NCBI GenBank assembly: GCA_009869945.1
Contig: WIXG01000099.1
Span: 124,001 to 188,000, forward strand
DNA from: Mesaphorura yosii
Lineage: Eukaryota > Arthropoda > Collembola > Poduromorpha > Tullbergiidae
Direction of reading: 5' to 3'
Length of the DNA stretch: 64,000 nt
In this document: piece after piece, positions 634 through 7,200 of the stretch
Numbering within the stretch: position 1 is the first letter of the stretch
Layout: the number at the start of each line of letters is the position of its first letter
The notes under the pieces: generated by a model
What the model was told of the DNA's origin: nothing
Databases searched by the model: none
What the model saw: only the letters and a program-made list of their open reading frames with translations
Made by a program: the position numbers and the translations under genes

Positions 634-869
634 ATGTTTTATCGAAATCCCTGGTTTTGGACATGGATATCAACTTGTGTGCTATGTATCAGTATTTTAA
701 TCACCTATCATTTTGAAGTGCGAAAGTCTCAAGAAGAAATCAAACATTTAATTGCTCGTGTGCTCAGAACTGACCCGGTTAAAACGGACCAATTTGAGAG
801 TCTTAACTCCGATAAACAACGGTTGGATAGTCAAATCGAATTTAAATACAACTTACCGGAGGAATCTTC
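634..869 (+). CDS. Candidate alternative first exon of malic enzyme with membrane anchor
   Basis: Open from an ATG at 634 to a strong GTAAGT donor at 870: 78 codons plus two bases. Residues about 7-26 form a hydrophobic stretch rich in Trp, Ile, Leu and Cys, followed by a charged, helix-prone segment (EVRKSQEEIKHL). This looks like a type II signal anchor. Phase 2 fits the malic enzyme exon at 5420, and no other downstream exon obviously claims it before that gene. Its tail carries QIEF, a tetrapeptide also found in the exon at 4201. Joined to malic enzyme it would give about 672 residues with a membrane-bound N-terminus. It could instead belong to an unrelated gene whose later exons I did not see. 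Confidence 0.4.
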
Positions 870-1656
870 GTAAGTATCAAGTGCTGTACTAGTTTGGTTA
901 AATCGGATCAAGCTTTAAGCTGACTTTCAATTCAGGCCAGCCCGTGAATTCATTATCAAAGTACTACTGACTGAGAGTAAACGTAATTAAACTAAGTCAC
1001 AACTCGCGAGCGATACTTCATGCGTGACCCAGACTCGCGTAGACCCGGGTTGCAGTTCTTAGCAAACATAAGTAATATTTAGGCAAACGCTGGTCTGAGT
1101 GGTACAGCCCAAAGGACAAAGGATCGCACCACGATAATGCACAGTTATTAATCTACAATCTAACGCCTTCCATTGCCATCATCAGTGCTTATTACATGAT
1201 GTTAGGAGTTAGGTACAACTTAATGTTATGTTAAGCAGCTAATTAGTTGTGTCATCATACAGGACATGGCATTAACTCTGAAGAAGACAAGACATCAACA
1301 GTATCATTAGTAGCAAGGAATGTGCTTGCTGATATCACCTCAGCCAGCACGCCGCCAGGTATGGGCCATAGGTAATTCCGGTAGTCTACCGAAGATGTAA
1401 AATACATACTAATTCTACTAACTTGACACTTGGGAATCATTACATATTAACTGGTTCACCGTTCTTGTCTCATGATGCCCTAGAACAACGTCAGCGTCTT
1501 TGTCTCACAAGGTTAAAACTTTGGTGACTCTTGGTTTGTGCATGCTGTGTGCCAAGTGCTTGCGCACCGAATCCTGACCGCTTGAAGCACAACACATATT
1601 CCGAAGTTTAGCGAACACGGGATAGAACAGAGGACACGGGTTTTGCGAATCGTACT

Positions 1657-1664
1657 TATAAAAG
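1657..1664 (+). promoter_or_regulatory. TATA box (TATAAAAG)
   Basis: A perfect TATAAAAG lies about 260 bases upstream of the ATG at 1921. It is flanked on both sides by copies of a GCGAA/ACACGGG motif in both orientations (1611-1621, 1634-1649, about 1675-1691). It would drive the alternative exon at 1921-1958. No clear initiator was seen at the expected distance. Confidence 0.35.
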
Positions 1665-1920
1665 CAATTCCCGTTCCCGTGTTTGGTTTCGCAAAGTGAT
1701 ATTCGCGAGCAATTTTTCTTATTATTACTTCCTAACCATTATAACTTCTAAACTTGTTAAATTCATAAACACGGCCACGGACGTCTGCTGCCGTCTGGCG
1801 CGTGTCGTCATCTCACACTTCACTTGTGATAATCGTTAACATTTGACCTTTTACCAGTGAACTTGCGAATTCCTGCCAGTTGGTGCATTACCTAATCAGT
1901 TGTACGACGCAGCTCCAAAC

Positions 1921-3989: not shown

Positions 3990-4023
3990 TCAGTAGTTGT
4001 TGCGCTGAAGTTCTGAGCGGACG
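3990..4023 (+). promoter_or_regulatory. Core promoter: TCAGT initiator plus DPE
   Basis: TCAGT at 3990-3994, the arthropod initiator with A+1 at 3992, is followed by GGACG at 4019-4023. That is exactly +28 to +32 and matches the RGWYV downstream promoter element. No TATA box is needed in this promoter class. It lies 209 bases before the ATG at 4201 and should start the 12-codon form of malic enzyme. Confidence 0.55.
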
Positions 4024-4200
4024 GATGTGGACGGTTTACGCTAGAAGAAATCAAAGTTGAAACAAAGCCAGCAGCAGTTCAACCTTCAGTATTCGAGAAG
4101 CCTTGATGAAAAGTTGATTAAAGTGTTCAAACTGTGTTGAAAGTACAAAGTCACCTATCCTACAGTATTAATCGTGAAATCGAAGCCGAAGACCCGCATA

Positions 4201-7200
4201 ATGGCAGACGAACAAATCGAATTTACAACGGAACACACGTAATTCTATTTCTACTCTTACTCTCGCATTCATTTCAGCAGATGCCGTAATTAAATTGAAG
4301 TTGATTCTAATATCGCAACATCGACACTGATCTATCGGAATATCGATCCAGCACAGTCGGTGTAAAAACTGTAGCCATCTTTAGCATACATCATGTAATT
4401 AGATGATCATAACCTTGAAGTCATCACATGTTTGAAACGCTGCTCGTGTAGTGCATTTTGCAAGGCTTTGACGTTTTGAACTTTGGAAAAGCGTGCTAGA
4501 ATTGTTCCGTGTCTGGTACGACTCTATGACTACTCTACGTAACCTTAAAGATGAGCAAGTCTAGTGTCTAGCCGAATAGCCGCTATCCTGTCAATCAAAT
4601 GTTGTCTTCTTGTGGTTGAGGTAATATCTCAAAAATGTAATTTGTGTTCTAGAAACTGAATTACCTTATGTACCTCGGTTATTATCATTGTTGAGATGAA
4701 CCAAAAACGTAATGACAAGATCATACGATCGGCAGTCACGAATCATTTCGTGTTAGTGCCAAGCAAACGCATCAATCGTCCACGAGAAATCAGCACCGGC
4801 ACTCAATGACAGAATGCTCTCACTCTCATCATCTGTCAATCACAGTGCAGTCAGATGTTCGTCATTAGCAAAAATTAAGGCGTTGAAATATTATTGTTTC
4901 ATTTACGGGTGAAATGCTTCGTGCATGTTTGACGGATGACATCAGAGTGTTATTCATCTTATGCACATTTTTATTATGGTCAGTAGAACCGCCTAGCGTC
5001 ATCATTTGTTTGACATTGGTTTAGCTGAGGTACGATTTTAAATTTTGCAAATGGTATAACCAGCTCTCCAACTGGTTGCATGAGCAGCAGTAGTGTAATA
5101 AGATTCACTTCTGATTTTCAATTCCACGCATCGTCAGTTTCGCAGGAGAATGGGTTAAGGTTACTAAGGTTGCGTAACCGTAAGTAATAGCAGGGCCTAT
5201 ATATAAACGACCGGTTTAGTCAGTACCTGCCTCTTGGTGAGTGCACTCCGGTTCCATTCTTATTCGAAGGCAGCGGAAAAGTACTCGACAACTTTACTTT
5301 GACTGACGACGCGTAGGTTCAAGGTTCAGAACACCTCACACAAAGAGATTTCGAAACAACTTCTTCTGGTAATGTTGATGTGAAAAGCTCTAATCAGTCT
5401 TGGTCTGTGTATTTGACAGATTGAACGGCTTTCACGGAACTCCTTCAAGTGATTCAAGACATCCAATAGTATTCAAGATGGACCCACGACGAGATCAACT
5501 TGGTCAAAGATCGTACCATGAGCAACCTGGTGACAATTTCTGCCCGTCAATGGTTCGCGGAATTGACTTCTTGCGAGACCCGAAACTAAACAAGGTAATA
5601 GGCAATGATAAGTATTAAATCCATTTAAGAACCCAACATGATTGGAGTATTGATTCGACTTTCTCTGGTTCTGGAAAAGAATGTGTAAATTAAAAGTCAG
5701 GAATCTCATGCGTCATTCCATTGAGAACCCTAGAATACTTCTTGTTGAACTTTCGCTGCCACCCGTGCGCGTTAGATTTCTATATGATATATGAGCGTGA
5801 GAGAGATTCTCAAGTTACACCAAACTAATTACCACTTTCATTTTAGGGAATGGCATTTACTCTCGAAGAGCGCCAGGCGTTAGGAATCCATGGATTAATT
5901 CCTCCTCGATTCAAGACGCAAGAAGAGCAAGTGCGTCTTTGCAAGGCGAATGTTGACATGTTTCATGAAGATCTAAACAAGTACATTTATCTCGTCGGAT
6001 TGCAGGTAATTTCATGCAGAACTTTCGGAAACAGTAATTATTTAGACTTGCCTTATGAAACCATTCATCTAAATTTGCTTCTGATTATAGGACAGAAACG
6101 AACGGTTGTTTTACCGCTTATTGTCCGAGAACGTGGAACAAATGATGCCGCTCGTTTACACACCAACTGTTGGGCTGGCGTGTCAAAAGTTCGGCTTGAT
6201 TTACCGTAGACCACGAGGACTTTTCATTACCATTCATGACAAAGGGCATGTTTACGAAATTCTGAAGAATTGGTAAGTTTTTATTCAAGGGTACTAAGCA
6301 CGCACCATTTTAATGTGTCTTTTTGTTTTTGTTCTTTAGGCCCGAAGCCGATGTCCGTGCCATCGTTGTTACAGACGGAGAGCGAATTCTAGGACTTGGA
6401 GATTTGGGTGCATATGGCATGGGAATACCTGTTGGGAAATTGGCCCTTTACACGGCTTTGTCGGGAATTAAACCATCCCAGTGCTTGCCAATTGTGTTGG
6501 ATGTTGGCACGAACACACAGGTAGAATTCCGACGAGTTAATCACTGATTGATAAAATATGGCGACGTACTGCTTGTTCATTTGCAGAGTTTGCTGGACGA
6601 CCCTTTCTACATTGGTCTTCGTCACAAGAGAATTCAAGGGCCAGAATACGACGAGTTTCTGGAAGAATTCATGCAGGCTGTCGTCCGCAGATATGGGCAG
6701 AATACTTTGATTCAGGTATGTTGCCATAAATTGGTTAGATTAGATAACTTATTAAAATGGCACGAATGGCACCTTCTCTTCAAAATTCATCTACTTAGCG
6801 TTGTAAATTCCTTCAATGACTTTTGCAGTTTGAAGATTTTGGAAATCACAACGCGTTTCGCTTGTTGGAAACGTATCGTGACCGTTATTGTACATTCAAC
6901 GATGACATCCAAGGAACTGCATCGGTGGCATTGGCTGGTAAGTAAAAACTAATACAAGACTTTAGTTGGTCGCAGCTAAATCAATTTGATTTGATAGGAT
7001 TGTTAGCTTCATTGCGCGTAACAAAAACCAAGTTGTCTGACCAAGTATTCTTGTTCCTGGGATGCGGAGAGGTAGCTAATTTATAAAGGTCAAAATTAAG
7101 ATGACAACTTCAAAGCGAATTCCTCACTGACAGGCTTCAATTGGAATTGCGACGCTGATCGTAAATGCCATGAAAAAAGAAGGCGTTTCACAAGAAGCTG

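Follow-up and report, generated by a model that had tools for sequence, protein, structure and literature searches.

A malic enzyme gene of the collembolan Mesaphorura yosii with plausible alternative first exons and a possible membrane-anchored isoform

Can a single gene for an ordinary NADP-dependent malic enzyme also supply a membrane-tethered form of that enzyme through an alternative first exon? The question is raised by a locus of the collembolan Mesaphorura yosii, lying in a window of 64,000 bases that covers positions 124001-188000 of its 226 kb contig (assembly size 93 Mb). A first-pass annotation of this window had proposed a malic enzyme with three phase-matched alternative first exons, one of them encoding a membrane anchor. 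Animal malic enzymes are described in passages of two papers as cytosolic or mitochondrial (PMC6471790, PMC3228860), and Drosophila Men is described in the first of these passages as cytoplasmic (PMC6471790).

The core of the gene consists of 12 exons from 5420 to 8218, which have GT/AG borders and join into an uninterrupted malic enzyme translation:

5420..5594, plus strand: exon 2, shared by all three joins to a proposed first exon, with an internal in-frame ATG at 5478
5847-6005, 6091-6272, 6340-6520, 6587-6715, 6829-6937, 6998-7071, 7134-7223, 7290-7648, 7839-7923, 8004-8047 and 8139-8218, plus strand: core malic enzyme exons 3-13, identified by translation and PDB match (E 3.8e-229)

The PDB search matched the product, over residues 59-609 of 611, to 1gq2, a solved malic enzyme that we take to be the pigeon enzyme, and full-length homology is present over the malic and NAD-binding domains. 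The translation contains VYTPTVG, which is named as a malic enzyme motif in passages of a paper that also give Ser 346 and Lys 362, in human ME2 numbering, as the marks of NADP-only malic enzymes (PMC3228860). Aligned with 1gq2, the window enzyme carries a Ser (in DSKG) and a Lys at the marking positions, the residue assignment being our own. Judged from its sequence, the gene is certainly a malic enzyme gene, and the Ser/Lys pair indicates that the product is an ordinary enzyme of the NADP type. The 11 introns within 5420-8218 range from 60 to 252 bases, with nine of them measuring 60-113 bases.

Upstream of this core, the three exons proposed as alternative starts are the following:

634..869, plus strand: exon 1a, candidate alternative first exon of 78 codons, hydrophobic within residues 7-29 and with a helical tail; donor TTC/GTAAGT, phase 2
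1921..1958, plus strand: exon 1b, the second first exon of the first-pass annotation (MDIESMLILLRN); weak donor CTC/GTTAGT, probably chance
4201..4238, plus strand: exon 1c, likely the ordinary first exon; donor CAC/GTAATT, phase 2

The coordinates were confirmed, in that each exon (236, 38 and 38 bases, respectively) begins with ATG and ends at a GT donor in phase 2. The open join to 5420 was confirmed as well, since translation of each of the three gives one and the same full-length malic enzyme, free of internal stops. Donors were scored with a matrix from 21 malic enzyme introns, 12 from the window gene and nine from a paralog on another contig. The known donors, scored leave-one-out, ranged from 2.70 to 10.45, with the three weakest at 2.70, 2.73 and 3.08. 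Scores of known acceptors were not leave-one-out, the known acceptors being inside the training set. An earlier version of the donor matrix, in which one donor was counted twice, underlies the paralog donor score and the choice of candidate exons for the pairwise word comparison given below. Controls were 1000 second-order Markov shuffles and further DNA of the same contig, 83,619 strand-bases in all.

Positions 1-5419 hold 17 distinct phase-2 ATG-to-donor candidates of at least 30 bases that score as well as 1921-1958 or better. The shuffles average 10.2 such candidates (P 0.05), and the other contig DNA has 11.4 of them per 5.4 kb. At the level of 634-869 or better, the same region has three phase-2 donors, compared to 1.5 in shuffles (P 0.21). 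These are the donors at 869 (6.28), at 2119 (6.32, passed over by the first-pass annotation) and at 4238 (7.07). Phase matching by itself is weak evidence, and the three-exon set stands little above chance. The donors of 634-869 and 4201-4238 lie inside the range of the 21 known donors and would suit in-phase first exons, whereas the donor of 1921-1958 lies outside that range. On their sequence features, alternative first exons appear credible at 4201 and plausible at 634, whereas the one at 1921 is left unsupported. Within the first intron, a 131-codon open frame at 3042-3434, which is without a family match, includes ATGs at 3234-3246 leading to a phase-2 donor at 3433, for which the earlier matrix gave 6.3 and the final one a value below 6.28.

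The donor of exon 1b scores 2.38, the weakest of the three exons and just under all 21 known donors (lowest 2.70). As a first exon, 1921-1958 is disfavoured by this score and by the 17 candidates of equal or greater strength in 1-5419, and it is probably a chance match. A TATAAA is present at 1657, 264 bases ahead of the 1921 ATG.

Exon 1c has the top phase-2 candidate donor in 1-5419 (7.07), which is equalled or exceeded by 8 of the 21 known donors. A donor as good is not exceptional, occurring with P 0.62 in shuffles (mean 0.93 candidates), and 0.19 are expected per 5.4 kb of other DNA. With its normal donor, 4201-4238 is the likeliest ordinary first exon. An upstream coding exon is not required, since the ATG at 5478 within exon 2 could itself start an enzyme of ordinary length. 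The acceptor at 5420 is weak, scoring 4.79 compared to 7.5-13.1 for 13 other acceptors of the window gene, all in the training set; the lowest of the 22 known acceptors scores 3.6. A pair of promoter-like words was found just ahead of exon 2:

5198..5222, plus strand: TATA-like TATATATAAA with an initiator-like TCAGT 24 bases on

This pair is a weak candidate promoter for a transcript that would start translation inside exon 2, with a spacing outside the scanned range of 25-36 bases. No pair of TATA and TCAKT was found within that range in 1-9600 of the window. A pair of initiator and DPE was found nowhere in the window.

A second malic enzyme gene in this genome (contig C73, L016 6386-9030) offers a comparison for the start of the window gene. 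In the paralog, Ala and Gln replace the NADP-marking Ser and Lys, as read by eye from the alignment, and the enzyme is possibly of the NAD type. Exon 2 of the paralog shows on reading no in-frame ATG ahead of the conserved core and starts with A-Leu as in the window gene. A 44-base first exon, MLQRCQPRLAYLNL, can be joined to it in phase 2 and supplies a basic leader that, judged by eye, resembles a mitochondrial one. This arrangement lends some support to a phase-2 coding first exon upstream of 5420, and it falls short of proof because the paralog acceptor at this place is very weak (1.46).

For exon 1a, the donor score of 6.28 is equalled or exceeded by 10 of the 21 known donors. ATG frames that match or exceed 634-869 both in length (236 bases) and in donor score turned up in 2.2% of shuffles (P 0.022) and not once in the 83,619 bases of other contig DNA. 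The codon score of the exon is -0.11, close to the mean of non-coding frames (-0.10, with 54% of 479 as high) and lower than that of any 78 consecutive malic enzyme codons (minimum -0.09). Its last 50 codons, following the hydrophobic segment, score a coding-like +0.06 in a split that was chosen afterwards. The training set comprised 2,337 codons and took in long window frames without a family match as well as kinase loci L023 and L032. For the choice of kinases, the frames of 15 of 30 kinase loci were viewed, and L045 was left out for a stop in frame. Codon usage is too weak to decide the matter, and the whole-exon value counts against 634-869. Searches with the exon 1a peptide gave nothing in Pfam to E 10 except a chance HALZ match at 0.14, and no credible relative in the PDB (best E 1.1). 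No relative was found in the genome_contigs and viral_contigs collections, from both of which near eukaryotes are absent, and a core malic enzyme exon was likewise without a match in viral_contigs. A second copy of exon 1a was not found in this genome.

The anchor itself was assessed from the exon 1a peptide. Hydrophobicity peaks at residues 11-29, with a Kyte-Doolittle mean of 1.57 over these 19 residues. Among 48 non-coding frames of at least 78 codons, 12 attain this value, so the hydrophobicity of exon 1a alone proves nothing. Residues 7-23 have a summed transfer energy of -0.77, calculated without position terms. AlphaFold run without an alignment predicted helices at 6-46 and 48-72, with a mean pLDDT of 79.3 in the best and 57.7 in the worst of five models. 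By eye, the N-terminal flank of the exon 1a segment holds Arg4 and the amino terminus, and the stretch after the segment is neutral in sum. Under the positive-inside rule these flank charges favour a lumenal location of the enzyme domain, were the protein inserted in the ER, which would make a cytosolic NADPH role harder. As a membrane anchor, the hydrophobic segment is borderline.

A link between exons 1a and 1c is provided by a shared 13-mer, which encodes Gln-Ile-Glu-Phe (QIEF) in frame in both exons:

832..844, plus strand: CAAATCGAATTTA, first copy, in exon 1a
4213..4225, plus strand: CAAATCGAATTTA, second in-frame copy, in exon 1c

The copies end 25 (1a) and 13 (1c) bases ahead of the respective donors. 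The word was spotted post hoc, after looking. The window has two copies of it and the 93 Mb assembly 13, compared to seven assembly copies of the reversed word. A word of this length is shared with exon 1a by 52 of 76,710 overlapping 38-base control windows and by 3 of 20,000 shuffles of exon 1c. Among 102 pairs of candidate first exons, chosen with the earlier matrix, the next longest common word has 8 bases. Local alignment compared to shuffles gave P 0.005 for 1a and 1c, 0.32 for 1a and 1b, and 0.14 for 1b and 1c. Exact 13-mer direct repeats number three pairs in 1-5600, compared to between 0 and 2 apiece for 10 other blocks. Two of the three pairs join the neighbourhoods of 1a and 1c in the same order, at 732/4043 and 832/4213, with 732 lying inside 1a and 4043 before 1c. 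Gapped alignment does not set the two neighbourhoods apart from shuffles (P 0.50), and an equally good alignment is given by 38 of 112 other window stretches. Common descent would account for CAAATCGAATTTA no better than a regulatory or splicing element common to both exons, and on either reading its presence in both exons ties 634-869 to the malic enzyme gene.

Taken as a whole, the earlier claim of three first exons with a membrane anchor is partly supported, and a membrane-anchored isoform is possible. The reading that we prefer, although it has somewhat less than an even chance of being right, is a single NADP-malic enzyme gene with two kinds of start, exon 1b being a match by chance. Exon 1c or the internal ATG at 5478 would give the ordinary soluble enzyme, and exon 1a would be a second, distal first exon spliced onto exon 2 across an 869/5420 junction. 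With its hydrophobic helix and the helical stalk that follows, the 78-residue N-terminal extension so added would fix the tetramer to a membrane, either that of the ER or the outer mitochondrial membrane, and make it a local source of NADPH. What the sequence shows is the open frames, the splice-site scores, the common 13-mer and the complete enzyme core; transcription from two promoters, the 869/5420 junction, membrane insertion, location and purpose are inferred. It is possible but doubtful that a distal promoter yields a membrane-tethered isoform, with an anchor exon derived from the ordinary first exon or sharing its 3' end, and that one gene would thus serve both a soluble and a membrane-bound supply of NADPH, the latter possibly lumenal.

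Against the preferred reading stands an unlikely one in which 634-869 is a chance open frame and the gene uses only 4201-4238, the ATG at 5478, or both. The non-coding character of its codon score, the 12 of 48 non-coding frames of equal hydrophobicity and the lack of relatives found for exon 1a all favour chance, but an open frame this long that also ends at so good a donor is seldom met by chance (0.022; none in 83.6 kb), and chance would leave the 13-mer common to 1a and 1c to be accounted for. The same word, in frame, also argues against 634-869 being a separate small gene, which we consider unlikely. Such a gene could be unspliced, coding for a single-helix membrane protein of 79 residues that stops at the TAA in GTAAGT, or it could have a second exon at 936-990 and a product of 96 residues. 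The frame of 634-869 is indeed complete alone. The acceptor at 936 scores 5.95, somewhat better than the 4.79 at 5420, and the resulting intron of 66 bases, beyond which the frame would end after 18 residues, would have the size usual in the malic enzyme core. However, a phase-2 GTAAGT donor always brings a stop with it, so that the stop is no sign of a gene end, 634-869 has no family match, and the sole AATAAA or ATTAAA between 870 and 2900 is an ATTAAA at 986 that overlaps the stop. Finally, the use of all three first exons, as annotated at first, is improbable. All three are in phase and the TATAAA at 1657 precedes exon 1b, but the donor of 1921-1958 falls under all 21 known donors, if barely under the three weakest, and the region holds 17 candidates of its strength or better.

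The proposed isoform can be compared with several known systems. The animal cytosolic NADP-malic enzymes (ME1; Drosophila Men) resemble the window enzyme in the homology over 59-609 of 611 residues and in the NADP-marking Ser and Lys, whereas the window gene differs in a likely upstream coding exon, in what may be a hydrophobic N-terminal extension and in duplicated last exons. In mitochondrial malic enzymes (ME2/ME3, Men-b), location is changed by an N-terminal extension, as proposed here for exon 1a and, by eye, similarly in the C73 paralog; however, this is done by a separate gene with a presequence and not by an alternative exon with an anchor. A membrane-bound malic enzyme was reportedly described in oleaginous fungi (Mucor) by Kendrick and Ratledge in 1992. 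That enzyme, compared here by reference title alone, is alike in being a malic enzyme reported on membranes and differs in being fungal. The literature matches listed for "membrane-bound malic enzyme" all have titles that refer to fungi, yeasts or a diatom. For the NADPH-cytochrome P450 reductase of Bactrocera dorsalis, two transcripts are described, of which one carries an N-terminal membrane anchor (PMC4683403); this reductase is likewise an NADPH enzyme but unrelated to malic enzyme. Passages of a paper on transvection at Drosophila Men make no mention of alternative first exons (PMC4232543). We met no membrane-anchored animal malic enzyme in the open-access literature, and as far as that literature shows, such an enzyme would be new. 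If true, the anchored form would put the supply of NADPH beside its membrane users, such as desaturases or P450 reductase, and would be a neat case of enzyme relocation via an alternative first exon. NADPH-cytochrome P450 reductase is normally membrane bound.

The 3' end of the gene holds homologous last exons that were absent from the first-pass annotation:

8630..8745, plus strand: alternative last exon B, ending WPNI*; strong acceptor of 11.6 (in the training set)
9395..9526, plus strand: alternative last exon C, ending DDQIRS*; strong acceptor of 11.5 (in the training set)

Exon 8139-8218 can be joined to either, and both encode the conserved C-terminus. The two exons are identical at 15 of 24 residues, and their differences at codon positions 1, 2 and 3 number 10, 4 and 13. 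Such replacement-sparing differences are the pattern expected of two exons in use, and the alternative last exons are better supported than the alternative first exons. Between 8745 and 9800, the only AATAAA or ATTAAA is the AATAAA at 9713, after exon C. A third in-phase continuation after 8218, at 8311-8378, has a fair acceptor (7.82) and then runs into a stop, and it may be due to chance.

Other genes were recognized around the malic enzyme gene. Pieces of a headcase gene lie at 21631-28956 on the plus strand (HECA_N E 9e-41, Headcase E 4e-19). Upstream of the window are an insect-type cuticle protein gene (Chitin_bind_4, E 7e-10; L002 7603-8480), about 2.4 kb away, and a nuclear hormone receptor (L003 4602-5159). 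Elsewhere in the assembly, short contigs (e.g., C644, C782, C841 and C540) carry many long P450 and kinase frames that are open over the whole domain, unlike the intron-rich window. The kinase loci sampled from them have 41-52% GC. These contigs with long open P450 and kinase frames are possibly contamination by another organism.
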